DNA of 64,000 bases from Candidatus Methanogranum gryphiswaldense (GTDB lineage Archaea; Thermoplasmatota; Thermoplasmata; Methanomassiliicoccales; Methanomethylophilaceae), in contig CP076745.1 in assembly GCA_019262145.1 (NCBI GenBank), positions 617,093 through 681,092 of the forward strand, in the 5' to 3' direction. The notes beneath the pieces were generated by a model, which saw only the letters and a program-made list of their open reading frames with translations, ran no database searches and was not told where the DNA came from. Shown here piece after piece: positions 58,565 through 64,000 of the stretch. Numbering within the stretch: position 1 is the first letter of the stretch; each line of letters starts with the position of its first letter. Position numbers and translations under genes: made by a program.

Positions 58565-60777
58565 AGGTTCTTTCATTGAGAATAAGATCTTTTGGTGAGT
58601 TGAGGGAAAGGAAAATCGACTTTGACGATGAACTTACGGTCATATATGGTAAGAATGAGACAGGGAAGACATCCTTCATGGAATTCATAAGAGGGACGTT
58701 GTTTCCTGACAATCAGAGAAATCATTATCCTGAATATAGGACCACAGACTCGGGAGAACTTGATTTTGAGATCGCTTCCGGAGATAAGTTCACGATAACA
58801 CGTGAAGGCAAAAAGGCGAGATCTGAAAAGATGCCCTCCGATATCGTCCATATGGATTCTTCGCTTTACAGGTCGTTGTTCGCAATGTCGCCTGAGGACC
58901 TTAGAGATTCCAAGGTCATTACTTCCGGGGAGATCAAGAATCGTTTCTTGACAGTTCCAGGCGGAGAGTCTCTCCCGAAGGTCATCGAGGATATAGAGTC
59001 CGAGATGAAGGATATAATGAGTGTTGATAGGAAATCCTCTTCTACAAAGGTAGCCAGATTGTTTTCTGACATAGAGAACAACGATATGGCTGTAAAAAGG
59101 TCCAAGGAATTGGATGGATCGTATGGTGAAAAGAGCAATGAAAGGAACGAACTCCAAAAGATATCAGAGGATTTGAAGGAGAAGAAGAAAGAATCTGATG
59201 TCGCGGTAGCATCATACAGTATCCAAAGATCTCAATCTGCAAATCTGGTCAAATTGGATGAGCTTAAAAAGAAAAAGGATACGATTTCAGCTTCGGCGGA
59301 AATAACCGACAGCGATAAGACAAAATATGAAGAGCTAAAGGTCAATCTGGCCAATATAAAGCGTGAGACGGAAGATGCACGTTCCGTTGTGAATGAATTT
59401 CAAGATTCCACAGATGGGATAGATCCGAAGATATTACTCGTACATCGTACTACGATCGAGGATCTGAAGCACAAAGAACAGCTATATGTACAATTATCAC
59501 GTCAAAGAAAAGAATTTCAAGACAATGAGAACAATGCGATCAAAGAGATAAATAATGAGCCCGTCAAAAGGGAGATGGTACAGAAGAGTAGGCCGAGTGT
59601 CGGTTTGATCGCCTTAGGGGCGATGGTGTTTGTTGCAACGGTTTTCATTGGATTACTATCCAACATCTTGGTATCTGTAGTCGGTGCCGCAGTTTTTGTC
59701 GCATGCATCATCATAGCGTTCAAGAAAGGTCAAAGGCGCGAAAGTAGTGTTTCAAGTGATAAGACGGTCGATTCCAGGCAGGTAGAATATTGGCACGGTA
59801 AGGTCCAAGAGCTCGATGGAAATATATCGAGTATTGAAAAGGACCTTGACATATTGGCAAAGAGGACAGGGCTTGCAAGATCATCGTTCATGATCGACGT
59901 TGATCGTTTGTATAATGCATTGGGAAATGCTTTGAAGATAAGTGATGCGGAAACAGTCAGAGATAAGTTGGATGTCTTGGAGAGCAGGGCGCAATCCGAT
60001 CTTAATCTATTCTTATCCAGGTTTGGTTCAGAACAGAGATTTAAGGATCTCTGTGAAATGAAAAAGGAATATGACAGCATATGCTATCAGATAGATACGC
60101 TTGAAAAAAGCATCGAATCATCCGGATATTTTAATGGAGCACAGGTAATCGAACTTCCTGATACGGAAGGAATTCAGGAAAAGATGAATGAGGTTCAGAG
60201 GAAAATAGGGGATATTGACAGACAGCTCAGGTCGATGCGTGAAGATGATGAAATGGAGCGGCTGTTGGATATGCGCACACTCCTAACTACAGAACTTTAC
60301 AATACAGTGAAGAGATGGGCGGTCCTGTCATTGGCATCTTCAATGATAGAGGATGCCTGCAACACGATATATTCCGACATTCAGCCAGGTGTGATAACCA
60401 CGGCTGACCACCTGGTAAGGACAATGACATGTGAGAGGTATGGTCTGGAGATGGACATTCGTACCAATGAGGTAAGAGTAAGGTCCGGAGACACAGGTAA
60501 GAAAGAGAAGGAATGGAGTACAGGTCTTGGCGATCAAGTGTATCTGGCAATAAAATTGGCAATCGCCAAGGAGATGTCAGGAAGTGAGACACTTCCAATC
60601 TTACTCGATGATGTGTTGCAGATGTTCGATTCTGAAAGGAAGAAAAACGCGTGCAAATCACTTGTAGAACTTTCAAAGGATATGCAGATAATATTGTTCA
60701 CATGCGATGCGGAGACACTGTCGATGATGAGGTCTATCGATGCTTGTAAGGTGATAGAGTTGGCTAATATTGAATAA
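58561..60777 (+). CDS. SbcC/Rad50/YhaN-like ATPase with transmembrane hairpin
   Basis: This 738-residue ATPase has an N-terminal ABC half (VIYGKNETGKTSFMEFIRG) and a C-terminal half with signature-like WSTGLGDQVYLAIKLAIAKE and Walker B PILLDDVLQMFD. Coiled-coil segments lie between (for example DLKEKKKESDVA). In the middle (~345-390) are two hydrophobic helices, VGLIALGAMVFVATVFIGLL and VVGAAVFVACIIIAF, and no CxxC zinc hook. This organisation is typical of YhaN, which pairs with YhaO. The ATG overlaps the yhaO-like stop. Probable role: membrane-linked DNA or signalling complex, function not established. Confidence 0.85.
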   Translation: MKVLSLRIRSFGELRERKIDFDDELTVIYGKNETGKTSFMEFIRGTLFPDNQRNHYPEYRTTDSGELDFEIASGDKFTITREGKKARSEKMPSDIVHMDSSLYRSLFAMSPEDLRDSKVITSGEIKNRFLTVPGGESLPKVIEDIESEMKDIMSVDRKSSSTKVARLFSDIENNDMAVKRSKELDGSYGEKSNERNELQKISEDLKEKKKESDVAVASYSIQRSQSANLVKLDELKKKKDTISASAEITDSDKTKYEELKVNLANIKRETEDARSVVNEFQDSTDGIDPKILLVHRTTIEDLKHKEQLYVQLSRQRKEFQDNENNAIKEINNEPVKREMVQKSRPSVGLIALGAMVFVATVFIGLLSNILVSVVGAAVFVACIIIAFKKGQRRESSVSSDKTVDSRQVEYWHGKVQELDGNISSIEKDLDILAKRTGLARSSFMIDVDRLYNALGNALKISDAETVRDKLDVLESRAQSDLNLFLSRFGSEQRFKDLCEMKKEYDSICYQIDTLEKSIESSGYFNGAQVIELPDTEGIQEKMNEVQRKIGDIDRQLRSMREDDEMERLLDMRTLLTTELYNTVKRWAVLSLASSMIEDACNTIYSDIQPGVITTADHLVRTMTCERYGLEMDIRTNEVRVRSGDTGKKEKEWSTGLGDQVYLAIKLAIAKEMSGSETLPILLDDVLQMFDSERKKNACKSLVELSKDMQIILFTCDAETLSMMRSIDACKVIELANIE

Positions 60778-60791
60778 AAACACCAAAAATG

Positions 60792-60800
60792 ATTTAAATA
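60792..60800 (+). promoter_or_regulatory. TATA box of the structured RNA
   Basis: ATTTAAATA (60792-60800) is a strong TATA-like box about 27 bp before 60823, where the first strand of the RNA's closing helix begins. It lies just after the yhaN stop, so the RNA can be transcribed independently. Confidence 0.6.
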
Positions 60801-60822
60801 TCATCACCCTATGGAGCGACAA

Positions 60823-61049
60823 GGGAAGTATACATCTTCTCTGTTCACTGATTCACTATCACAATCACATACCCTGCTAGGAAGCGGGGAAGTACTACAC
60901 CGTGCCGCACAGTAGCGATCTGTCCGGTTAAGCACAAAACGGTATTCAAAGATGGGAAGCGCAGGAAGCATGCCATGATAAGGGAGCGAGTATCCCAGTT
61001 GGCGTGCCGAAGGAAGGACAACAGCAGAGCAGGGACGTGTATTTTTCCC
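60823..61049 (+). ncRNA. Probable structured RNA (or dnaG leader), family unknown
   Basis: About 227 nt without a convincing reading frame. The ends can pair: GGGAAGTATACA (60823-60834) with TGTATTTTTCCC (61038-61049), allowing one G-U and one mismatch. Inside, CCCTGCT (60872-60878) pairs with AGCAGGG (61028-61034), CTAC/GTAG (60895-60898/60912-60915) with GTG/CAC form a hairpin, and GCATGCCA (60968-60975) pairs with TGGCGTGC (61000-61007), capped by GGGA/TCCC. Purine-rich GGAAG-type linkers separate these helices. It does not show the conserved RNase P or SRP helix-8 sequences. It is either a stable RNA gene or a riboswitch-like 5' leader of dnaG. Confidence 0.55.
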
Positions 61050-61066
61050 TCCAACCTAATGGAGGG
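61047..61066 (+). promoter_or_regulatory. Hairpin hiding the dnaG ribosome-binding site
   Basis: CCCTCC (61047-61052) pairs with GGAGGG (61061-61066) across an 8-nt loop. GGAGGG is also the Shine-Dalgarno site, 5 nt before the dnaG ATG. The CCC is shared with the closing helix of the upstream RNA, so the two foldings exclude each other. Confidence 0.6.
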
Positions 61067-61071
61067 TACAT

Positions 61072-62997
61072 ATGAATATTGATCCAAACGCAACAAAATA
61101 TATGATCAAAGCCAAGATCACGGCTGACGGCATCGTTGAGAAACCAGATGTCGTGGGAGCGATCTTTGGACAGACAGAAGGACTGCTTGGAGACGATCTC
61201 GATCTTAGAGATCTTCAGAAATCAGGCAGGATAGGTAGGATAGAGGTCGAGATTGTTTCCAAGGGCGGAAAGTCAGAGGGAATAATCTACATGGCTTCTT
61301 CACTTGATCAGGTGGAGACTGTAATTCTCGCATCTGCACTCGAGACCATCGACCGTGTAGGACCTTGCAAAGCAAGCATCCGTGTTCTCGGTATCGAGGA
61401 TGTTCGCGTGACCAAGAGAGAAAAGGTCGTCGAACGTGCAAAAGAACTTTTGAATGATCTTATCGTACAATCAAAAGGAACATCTTCTGACCTTACACAG
61501 AGCATAAGACAATCCATACAAGTGGAAGAAATAACTACATATGGAAAGGACAGATGCCCGGCAGGTCCGGCTGTCAAAGATTCCGAATCCATAATCATTG
61601 TGGAAGGAAGGTCCGATGTTCTCAATCTGCTTAGAGCAGGAATAAAGAACGCCATTGCAGTTGAAGGAACGAACATTCCTAAGACCGTACAGGACCTTTC
61701 CAGAGAAAAGGTGGCAACAGCATTCACCGATGGAGACAGAGGAGGAGAATTGATCCTCAGAGAACTTTTCCAGACATCGGAGATAGATTTCGTTGCCCGT
61801 GCGCCTCGTGCCCATGAGGTCGAGGAACTCACTTCCAAACAGATAGTGAAATGTCTCCGCAACAAGGTCCCTGGTGACCAGTACATGGAGATGAATGGTC
61901 TAAGCTACGAGGAGAAAGACCTTGACGAGACCGCAGAACGCGATCTTCGTGAGGGTGAGCGCAGAGAGATCCGCGAGGATGATAAACCTAGAAGGGACCG
62001 CGAAGCGCGCGAAGGCCGTGACCGCAGGGACAGGCCCGAGAGGTCGAACGACAGGACAGAAAGGACCGAGAGGCCTGAGAGATCGGAAAGATCTGAGAGA
62101 CCCGAGAGGTCGAACGACAGGACAGAAAGGACCGAGAGGCCTGAGAGATCGGAAAGATCTGAGAGACCCGAGAGGTCGAACGACAGGACAGAAAGGACCG
62201 AGAGGCCTGAGAGATCGGAAAGATCTGAGAGACCCGAGAGGTCGAACGACAGGACAGAAAGGACCGAGAGGCCTGAGAGATCGGAAAGATCTGAGAGACC
62301 CGTCGAGAGAAGAAAGGATAACACCAGAACAAGGGATTCCGATTCCGATTCTGATGAACGCCGCGAGCGCAAAGAGAGATTCAACTCTGAGAACGCTGAC
62401 AGATACAAGAAGAAGAATGTTCACGGGACAGAGAATTCCGAAGAGCGTGTAGACGCTGTTGATAATTCAGAGAGCGAGTCCAAGATCGTAGAGCGCAGAG
62501 AGGAATCTGCTGTCATCGAATCTGTACCAAAATCTGAGATTGTCGAGGCATCCGATATCGTTTCAACAGAATACTCTGATGAATCGAAGAAGACAAGGAA
62601 GGTCCGCGAAAAGGCAGACAAACCGGAAAGGGCACACAAAGAAGACGACAAGTCCACAAGGACACTTCGTGCAAAGAAGGACAGAAACACCAAGACACTG
62701 TCCCCAGAGCAAGAGGTATTCAGAGACATGCTTCTTGATATGTCCTCTACACACAACGCGAAAATACTCGCGGCAGACAACTCTGTGATAAGAGAGGTCG
62801 CTGTCAAGGGATTGGTAAGTTCGCTCAAAGAGGAATCTGCGGGTACATCTACCATAATCTTTGATGGTGTGATATCCCAAAGGATACTCGATGTATCTGC
62901 CGAGAAGGGCATAAACACTGTGGTGGGTACCCGTAAGGGTAACATCACCAAGATGCCTGCTAATATCGTGATCTGGACCAAAGAAGACCTCTATTGA
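61072..62997 (+). CDS. dnaG: DNA primase DnaG, archaeal type
   Basis: This 641-residue DnaG has an N-terminal domain (MIKAKITADGIVEKPDVVGAIFGQTEG, read in parts) and a TOPRIM domain at ~173-250 with IIIVEGRSDVLNLL and FTDGDRGGEL. Archaeal DnaG is a primase-like protein and a subunit of the RNA exosome. Residues ~290-570 are a long charged, probably disordered insert with four identical 22-residue repeats (about 322-409) rich in Arg/Glu. The C-terminal ~70 residues (VFRDMLLDMSSTHNAKIL onward) form the conserved tail that closes the protein. It is longer than the ~400-450 residues usual for the family because of the insert. Lon-type protease follows. Confidence 0.94.
   Translation: MNIDPNATKYMIKAKITADGIVEKPDVVGAIFGQTEGLLGDDLDLRDLQKSGRIGRIEVEIVSKGGKSEGIIYMASSLDQVETVILASALETIDRVGPCKASIRVLGIEDVRVTKREKVVERAKELLNDLIVQSKGTSSDLTQSIRQSIQVEEITTYGKDRCPAGPAVKDSESIIIVEGRSDVLNLLRAGIKNAIAVEGTNIPKTVQDLSREKVATAFTDGDRGGELILRELFQTSEIDFVARAPRAHEVEELTSKQIVKCLRNKVPGDQYMEMNGLSYEEKDLDETAERDLREGERREIREDDKPRRDREAREGRDRRDRPERSNDRTERTERPERSERSERPERSNDRTERTERPERSERSERPERSNDRTERTERPERSERSERPERSNDRTERTERPERSERSERPVERRKDNTRTRDSDSDSDERRERKERFNSENADRYKKKNVHGTENSEERVDAVDNSESESKIVERREESAVIESVPKSEIVEASDIVSTEYSDESKKTRKVREKADKPERAHKEDDKSTRTLRAKKDRNTKTLSPEQEVFRDMLLDMSSTHNAKILAADNSVIREVAVKGLVSSLKEESAGTSTIIFDGVISQRILDVSAEKGINTVVGTRKGNITKMPANIVIWTKEDLY
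62035..62298 (+). repeat. Four identical 66-bp tandem repeats inside dnaG
   Basis: The unit starts CCCGAGAGGTCGAACGACAG and is repeated at 62035, 62101, 62167 and 62233 without a mismatch that I can see. Each encodes PERSNDRTERTERPERSERS plus ER in frame. Perfect identity implies recent expansion or active homogenisation. Confidence 0.9.
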
Positions 62998-63007
62998 GGT
63001 GGACTTA

Positions 63008-64000
63008 ATGGCTAAGAAAAAATCTGTGGATGTCTGGGAGGATGTGGCTACTCTTAAGAGCACTGCTGATATCCAGATACCCCCAGACCCTTTAGACAGG
63101 GTTCTGGGGCAGGAAGAAGCAATAGCGCTTGCAAAGATCGCGGCCATACAGCACAGGCATTTGCTGTTGGTAGGACCTCCTGGAACAGGAAAGTCGATGA
63201 TCGCCCGTGCGATCTCGATGAACCTTCCAAAACCTAAGCAGGAGATCAGGGTCGTAAAGAATCCTGAGAATTCTGAAAGGCCATTCCTCGAGGTCCTCAA
63301 CGAAGATCAGGTCAACGAAGAAGAAGGCATACGTGCCGAATCTGTCGGTAAATTGCTTGATCCGGAAAAAGCACCTGTGAATGTTGCTGAACGTCTTGGA
63401 TACATGTGCAAGTACTGTAAGACATATTCATCTCCCAATGAGTTGATGTGTCCGTCTTGTCAGAAGAGTAAAATGGATGTGGGTGCAAACAACAATCCTT
63501 TCGGTGATCTTATCGGAGGACTGTTGGAATCTGCGATGCCACAAGTCATCGCTGGTAAGGACAAGGTCCATACGACACGTGTTCTCGCTGACGGTACTGA
63601 GGAGACCGTGGTATTCGAGCGTGCAGGCGACAAGATAAGGATGTTGGACAACAAGGCGCTTCAGAAGAGGAGCCAGTTGAATAAGAAATCCAATCAGAAG
63701 GTCCTTGTGAAATTCAATAGAGACCCATTCGTAATGGCCACAGGAGCATCGGAGACGGAGCTTCTGGGAGACGTAAGGCACGATCCTTACGGAGGTCATG
63801 AGAAATTGGGAACTCCCGCCTATGAAAGGGTCGTCGCAGGGTCTATTCACGAGGCACACGAGGGTGTGTTATTCATTGATGAGATATCCCATCTGGGAAA
63901 TCTTCAGAGATTCATCCTCACTGCGATGCAGGATAAGAAATTCCCCATAGCAGGAAGGAATTCACAATCCGCAGGTGCCAGTGTCAAGGTCGACAATGTA
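63008..64000 (+). CDS. lonB: Lon-type ATP-dependent protease, N-terminal part with zinc-ribbon-like insert
   Basis: The first 331 residues of an archaeal Lon-type protease; the gene runs past the window. Walker A is VGPPGTGKSMIARA (~55-68) and Walker B GVLFIDEISHL (~286-296), with PPDPLDRVLGQEEAIALAK before and AYERVVAGSIHEAHEG between. Between the Walker motifs lies a ~220-residue region with CKYCKTYSSPNELMCPSCQ (Cys 134, 137, 148, 151), a zinc-ribbon-like site. No hydrophobic membrane anchor is seen there, although archaeal LonB normally has one in this place. GAGGTGGA precedes the ATG by 4 nt. The catalytic Ser-Lys domain is outside the window. Confidence 0.9.
   Translation, partial: MAKKKSVDVWEDVATLKSTADIQIPPDPLDRVLGQEEAIALAKIAAIQHRHLLLVGPPGTGKSMIARAISMNLPKPKQEIRVVKNPENSERPFLEVLNEDQVNEEEGIRAESVGKLLDPEKAPVNVAERLGYMCKYCKTYSSPNELMCPSCQKSKMDVGANNNPFGDLIGGLLESAMPQVIAGKDKVHTTRVLADGTEETVVFERAGDKIRMLDNKALQKRSQLNKKSNQKVLVKFNRDPFVMATGASETELLGDVRHDPYGGHEKLGTPAYERVVAGSIHEAHEGVLFIDEISHLGNLQRFILTAMQDKKFPIAGRNSQSAGASVKVDNV

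Follow-up and report, generated by a model that had tools for sequence, protein, structure and literature searches.

A conserved, putative cis-regulatory RNA leader with a UCAY repeat array upstream of dnaG in the Methanomassiliicoccales

Introduction

To our knowledge, archaea have few known regulatory RNA leaders. Among bacterial genes for RNA-turnover enzymes, pnp and rne carry structured, autoregulatory leaders that set the level of their mRNA. Clusters of YCAY are bound by KH domains such as those of Nova. In the trp leader of Bacillus, which is bound by TRAP, short repeats lie beside mutually exclusive helices that decide downstream expression (PMC3913778, PMC4027176), and the cis-acting structured leader RNAs described from archaea include riboswitches and candidate motifs such as crcB (PMC2864571). 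Here an RNA element is described that directly precedes dnaG in Candidatus Methanogranum gryphiswaldense. It was found in a window of 64,000 nt, positions 617093-681092 of the complete 1.52-Mb genome; coordinates below are those of the window unless a contig or locus is named, and the features of the window lie on the + strand. The element is almost certainly a real conserved leader, and its regulation of dnaG in cis is predicted with high probability.

Position and anatomy of the element

Upstream of the element lies an SMC/Rad50-like open reading frame (ORF) whose stop codon, according to the ORF list, is at 60777. Between this stop codon and dnaG (61072-62997) the only TATA box seen is TTTAAATA (60793-60800), from which, given the sequence and the ORF limits, a start at about 60821-60823 is predicted. 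The initial annotation had placed the start where a closing strand begins, and the TATA box indeed lies 22-26 nt upstream of the first paired strand, AAGGGAAG (60821-60828). It had also put the partner strand at a T-run about 215 nt further on; UUUCCCU (61044-61050) overlaps the T-run at 61042-61046, about 220 nt downstream. Since the element is situated between the sole TATA box and dnaG, the dnaG messenger must include it. The fold of 60816-61049 has a free energy of -74.3 kcal/mol (z -2.74), and one of 200 dinucleotide shuffles was equally stable. The position of the TATA box and this stability against shuffles confirm that a structured RNA had been recognised.

From 5' to 3' the element consists of segments A and B, a UCAC array, a hairpin, a clade-specific inner domain, segments C and D, and the Shine-Dalgarno sequence. 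Segment A (AGGGAAG, 60822-60828) can form the outer closing helix with 61044-61050 or a local hairpin with 60836-60842. The middle of the closing helix (60830-60835, paired with 61037-61042) becomes the loop of the local hairpin in the alternative state. Segment B (CUUCUCUGUUC, 60836-60846) pairs through 60838-60846 with segment C (GAGCAGGGA, 61027-61035), or through 60836-60842 with A. Segment D (UUUUUCCCU, 61042-61050; UUUUUCCC as named in the 5'-to-3' order) pairs with A and holds the U-run, while its 61047-61050 can alternatively enter a Shine-Dalgarno hairpin, CCCUCCA:UGGAGGG (61047-61053 with 61060-61066), which is extended by pairing of 61037-61041 with 61067-61071. The long-range duplex of 60822-60846 with 61027-61050 amounts to -28.7 kcal/mol. 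Across 49 leaders the closing helix (A:D plus B:C) has about 20 bp and -12 to -35 kcal/mol, mostly -20 to -35, and ends 8-27 nt, usually about 20 nt, before the dnaG start codon.

The UCAC array occupies 60845-60868, with copies at 60845-60848, 60853-60856, 60859-60862 and 60865-60868, and is followed by the hairpin at 60872-60889 (60872-60878 with 60883-60889). The inner domain (60890-61021) differs between clades; in the minimum-free-energy fold its motif AGAUGGGAA, located around 60950, is a possible pairing partner of UUCACUAUC in the array. The initial annotation had overlooked the fourfold array and two hairpins, the local one (60822-60828 with 60836-60842) and that of the Shine-Dalgarno sequence.

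A covariance-model search of RNA families, which that annotation had proposed, gave no match to Rfam 15 (4227 families) at the gathering score in the window and only chance-level hits in the region of the element. Fourteen related loci (threshold E ≤ 1) and 20 loci of more distant genomes (E ≤ 0.1) likewise matched no family. Like the element, the RNase P and signal recognition particle (SRP) RNAs of archaea are stable RNAs of similar length; they were rightly set aside at the outset: neither RF00373 nor RF01857 matches the region, and both RNAs are located elsewhere in the genome, at C1:413287-413581 (195 bits) and C1:806852-807158 (159 bits), respectively. A tRNA or tmRNA was rejected as well, no tRNA being present.

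Distribution and linkage to dnaG

DNA upstream of dnaG was compared in Methanomethylophilaceae, Methanoplasma, Methanomethylophilus and other metagenome-assembled genomes (MAGs), and in the other five families of the order; taxon names of relatives were taken from MAG titles, and f and g numbers are anonymous family and genus labels. Using BLASTN, the element was found in 35 of the 102 genomes of the family. Each of the six families of the order Methanomassiliicoccales has it upstream of dnaG, with its array and pairing arms. A sequence model of 56 positions (R1), representing the 5' part of the element, was run over 147 genomes of the order and gave 69 matches at E ≤ 0.002; compared with the dnaG coordinates, 68 of these were immediately upstream of dnaG, and the other came from an incomplete genome (G101) in which dnaG was not found. 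A MAFFT alignment of 37 5' modules was used as a sequence model only, because segment A was misplaced in it. The SMC/Mre11 pair upstream is missing at many loci, at which the element, dnaG and lonB remain together. An apparent separation from dnaG in genus g11 was rejected, as the element is at dnaG there too, and two loci (L040 and L047) proved to be chance matches of the core pattern elsewhere.

The initial annotation had suggested that the RNA could be either new and stable or a riboswitch of dnaG, and this linkage bears on the first half of the suggestion. A free-standing RNA of about 225 nt could act in trans, its 3' end formed at the U-run in D or at a processing site, with dnaG a mere neighbour or read through. 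The element's own TATA box, its paired ends and the U5 at its 3' end would suit such an RNA, for which a 225-nt band had been expected. The element, however, always lies no more than about 25 nt from the dnaG start codon and never convincingly elsewhere, and it leaves no room for a separate dnaG promoter. Because it stays with dnaG when the upstream gene changes, and because its last helix and the Shine-Dalgarno hairpin are rivals for the 3' strand, a cis-acting leader is favoured and a free-standing RNA is considered improbable.

Beyond the order, several families of the class have a reduced form of the element before dnaG. The form in f9 (L252) is nearly bare, GGAAAGUAGUCUAUC pairing with GGGUAGACUAUUUUCC around five UCAY, and that in f18 (L264-L266) is minimal, five to seven UCAY being enclosed by a helix of GGGAAAAAUGGUC and UGACUAUUUUUCCC. 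A helix is also present in f8, f11, f20, f23 and f30, where the 3' strand has a UUUUC or UUUUUC run. A different leader, also conserved and marked by GGAAUCACGACUCAUG and the motif GUCGUA, stands before dnaG in several Thermoplasmata MAGs (L128-L148) and may be a diverged relative.

Covariation and alternative pairing

In unconstrained alignments, RNAalifold recovered A:D plus B:C for two clades (alignments A1 and A3) and B:C for a third (A2). Standard pairs made up 91.7% of pair cells in A1 and 90.4% in A3, against 41-59% when partners were slid by 1-3 columns, a control that flatters the pair counts since the structures were derived from the same alignments. Changes on both sides were seen at 10 of 24 pairs in A1 (4.9 shuffled, 2-5 slid) and at 11 pairs in A3 (5.3 shuffled). 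Compensatory changes in relatives were found in the closing helix, in the inner long-range helix (60838-60846 with 61027-61035) and in the hairpin at 60872-60889, where all six aligned pairs of A1 show them; the internal helix and hairpin of the initial annotation are both present, and the covariation it had looked to relatives for is seen.

The local hairpin A:B, as well as the long helix, can form in all 49 leaders listed. In a swap test, in which a leader's own strands were compared with strands exchanged between species (47 leaders), pairing with the 3' region was better than exchanged for A plus loop (z -7.7) and for B (z -5.3), as was the A:B pairing (z -4.7), controls being A with the Shine-Dalgarno region (z -1.7) and B with the same region (z +1.6); the test is free of the same-alignment weakness, but its scores are inflated by relatedness. 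When the local hairpin was enforced in folding, mean Shine-Dalgarno accessibility fell from 0.68 to 0.42 in 56 leaders (Wilcoxon p = 6e-9, the leaders not being independent) at a mean cost of 6.3 kcal/mol; in the leader of the window it fell from 0.25 to 0.00. By this modelling the alternative structure is coupled to Shine-Dalgarno access.

A purely structural role, in which the element would constitutively stabilise or boost the dnaG mRNA and no switching would occur, fits the stability of the closing helix alone and the cost of about 6 kcal/mol for the alternative state. It leaves the conservation of the UCAY array and the co-evolving A:B hairpin unexplained, and is the least probable of the alternatives weighed here. 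What was found instead matches a cis-acting mRNA leader: constant linkage to dnaG between promoter and start codon, compensatory changes, and a computed alternative structure at an expression signal.

The UCAY array

The array is the best-conserved part of the element, reading UUCACUGAUUCACUAUCACAAUCAC in the window, UGAUCACUAUCAUCC in f3 and parts of f6, and GUUCACUCUCACCAUCUCAUC in f5. Leaders differ in its spacing and copy number and retain UCA[C/U]. Among 4-mers, UCAC shows the strongest over-representation in the dnaG leaders of f1 (124 against 40 in dinucleotide shuffles), and likewise in those of f2-f6 (43 against 15) and of the remaining families of the class (62 against 26). Four UCAC within 28 nt occur only at the element in the 64-kb window, on either strand. 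A variably spaced repeat is the kind of target that a multi-site RNA-binding protein recognises, and binding of a protein to UCAY is predicted as somewhat probable.

The other half of the initial suggestion, a riboswitch, would have the array and inner domain form a metabolite pocket and the competing helices an expression platform. The aptamer-like place near the promoter, the mutually exclusive helices, the masking of the Shine-Dalgarno sequence and the strong conservation of inner motifs within clades speak for it. Against this, the conserved core is a repeat of variable spacing and copy number and not a fixed pocket, the inner domains differ by clade and are missing in the f9 and f18 forms, and linkage is to dnaG only, with no metabolic pathway. 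A small-molecule riboswitch in the strict sense is unsupported because the repeat array points to a protein, and is held as improbable as the free-standing RNA; the connection with dnaG, as a cis-acting leader, is the part of the suggestion that stands.

A regulon of UCAC arrays was rejected, the other triple-UCAC sites of the genome being almost all inside ORFs. Apart from L161, L158 is the one further non-coding array candidate seen in the genome; in it a triple UCAC run, UCACUUAAUUCACUCAC, lies at L158:1501-1517 (C1:770615-770631, - strand), where there is no ORF longer than 100 amino acids. One clade of leaders (L072-L100; columns 88-145 of alignment A2) has an extra invariant module, GGGCAACGGRGCKCCGACCC then GGUUUGGUUA, and the leaders of the A3 clade have a GCCGUGGUUAACGGAC module; each is possibly a second binding site.

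Proposed mode of action

The element would act as the leader of dnaG and of the following lonB, transcribed from its own promoter. A and C are purine strands, B and D pyrimidine strands, and they would allow two mutually exclusive pairings. In the first state, A:D and B:C would build the long closing helix and hold D off the Shine-Dalgarno sequence. In the second, the local A:B hairpin, which would form first during transcription, would release D to help mask that sequence. The UCAC/UCAU array beside B would offer a multi-site platform for an RNA-binding protein, whose occupancy would select the state and so set translation of dnaG or read-through of the U-run in D.

A primase role of DnaG is disputed. 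The protein is an RNA-binding member of the archaeal RNA-degrading exosome (PMC4227792), and the present genome encodes exosome RNase PH subunits. DnaG, alone or within the exosome cap, would be the likeliest regulator, closing a negative feedback loop. For a bistable, protein-binding cis leader that controls dnaG, most likely through feedback by DnaG or the exosome, we infer the regulator and the direction of control, and we hold belief and doubt in about equal measure. Autoregulation by DnaG or the exosome, taken by itself, is put forward tentatively. Rather unlikely is the broadest version, an ancient, class-wide archaeal UCAY-array switch by which DnaG, or else the exosome cap, monitors how much of it is free and limits its own translation, a feedback leader without bacterial homologue.

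The level controlled could be translation (by way of the Shine-Dalgarno hairpin), termination (at the U-run of D) or stability; the coupling to the Shine-Dalgarno sequence speaks for translation. Archaeal RNA polymerase ends at U-runs, and the closing helix with its U-run might be a regulated terminator or a nuclease entry site, so that the level of dnaG mRNA and not its translation is set. The U-run in D is kept as UUUUC or UUUUUC in f3, f6, f8, f9, f11, f18, f20 and f23, and membership of DnaG in an RNA-degrading complex (PMC4227792) would also agree; U-runs are, however, interrupted or short in some members (such as L118, L123 and L092), and such attenuation or processing seems unlikely, if less so than the other alternatives.

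Several results weigh against a translational switch worked by DnaG or the exosome, the inflation of the swap test by relatedness among them. In that test the pairing of D with the Shine-Dalgarno region was weaker (z -2.7), and in some clades the Shine-Dalgarno hairpin forms without D. No convincing element was seen before dnaG in f22 (Thermoplasmatales-like), f26 and part of f14, so dnaG does not depend on the element. Among the f5 and f14 duplexes, several were no better than base-shuffled controls; as these came from a best-duplex search, such single members with weak z are not counted as support. Loci around rrp41 and rrp42 showed no UCAY array in leader position, and a wider exosome regulon is consequently not supported. 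The RNA preference of Sulfolobus DnaG is for poly(A) and not UCAY (PMC4227792).

Neighbouring genes

The gene led by the element (61072-62997) was identified as dnaG by the NF003108 DnaG equivalog, at 508 bits against a cut-off of 300. It is followed directly by lonB, which starts at 62999. At nearly every locus of the order, and in other Thermoplasmata as well, the two remain adjacent (61072-64000) although the genes before them vary, and the leader may therefore govern lonB too.

Within dnaG a perfect 66-bp tandem repeat (62035-62302; 4.1 copies, 100% identity) encodes PERSNDRTERTERPERSERSER, a linker rich in Arg and Glu that joins the TOPRIM and C-terminal parts. Between the ATPase motifs of LonB (62999-64000) sits CKYCKTYSSPNELMCPSCQK, a Cys-rich insert that resembles a zinc ribbon.

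Comparison with known systems

The leader is conserved throughout an order, a reduced form of it extends over much of a class, and it combines a protein-type repeat with a two-state design that can be tested. As it stands on the gene of an exosome subunit, control of the level of the archaeal RNA-decay machinery becomes a directly testable question. No description of the element was found in the main texts of the open-access literature on riboswitches in the order, dnaG leaders, DnaG autoregulation or archaeal YCAY. The main text of the archaeal riboswitch survey (PMC2864571) does not include dnaG; its riboswitches and candidate motifs share with the element a cis-acting, structured leader, and the element has no Rfam 15 counterpart.

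The design resembles that of the TRAP-bound trp leader, with short repeats beside mutually exclusive helices. TRAP reads 11 (G/U)AG repeats before tryptophan genes, whereas the archaeal element carries 3-7 UCAC/UCAU before dnaG, and there is no homology; the repeats are not (G/U)AG, and the TRAP protein itself was not searched for. With the pnp and rne leaders the element shares a structured leader on an RNA-turnover gene and, as proposed, feedback by the product; there is no sequence relation, and the UCAY array with the Shine-Dalgarno switch is the element's own. Spaced UCAY in single-stranded RNA is common to it and to Nova-type YCAY clusters, but its context is a prokaryotic leader. Since this likeness to repeat-array leaders comes without a common motif, protein or ancestry, the element is best placed as a cis-regulatory leader outside any named family.
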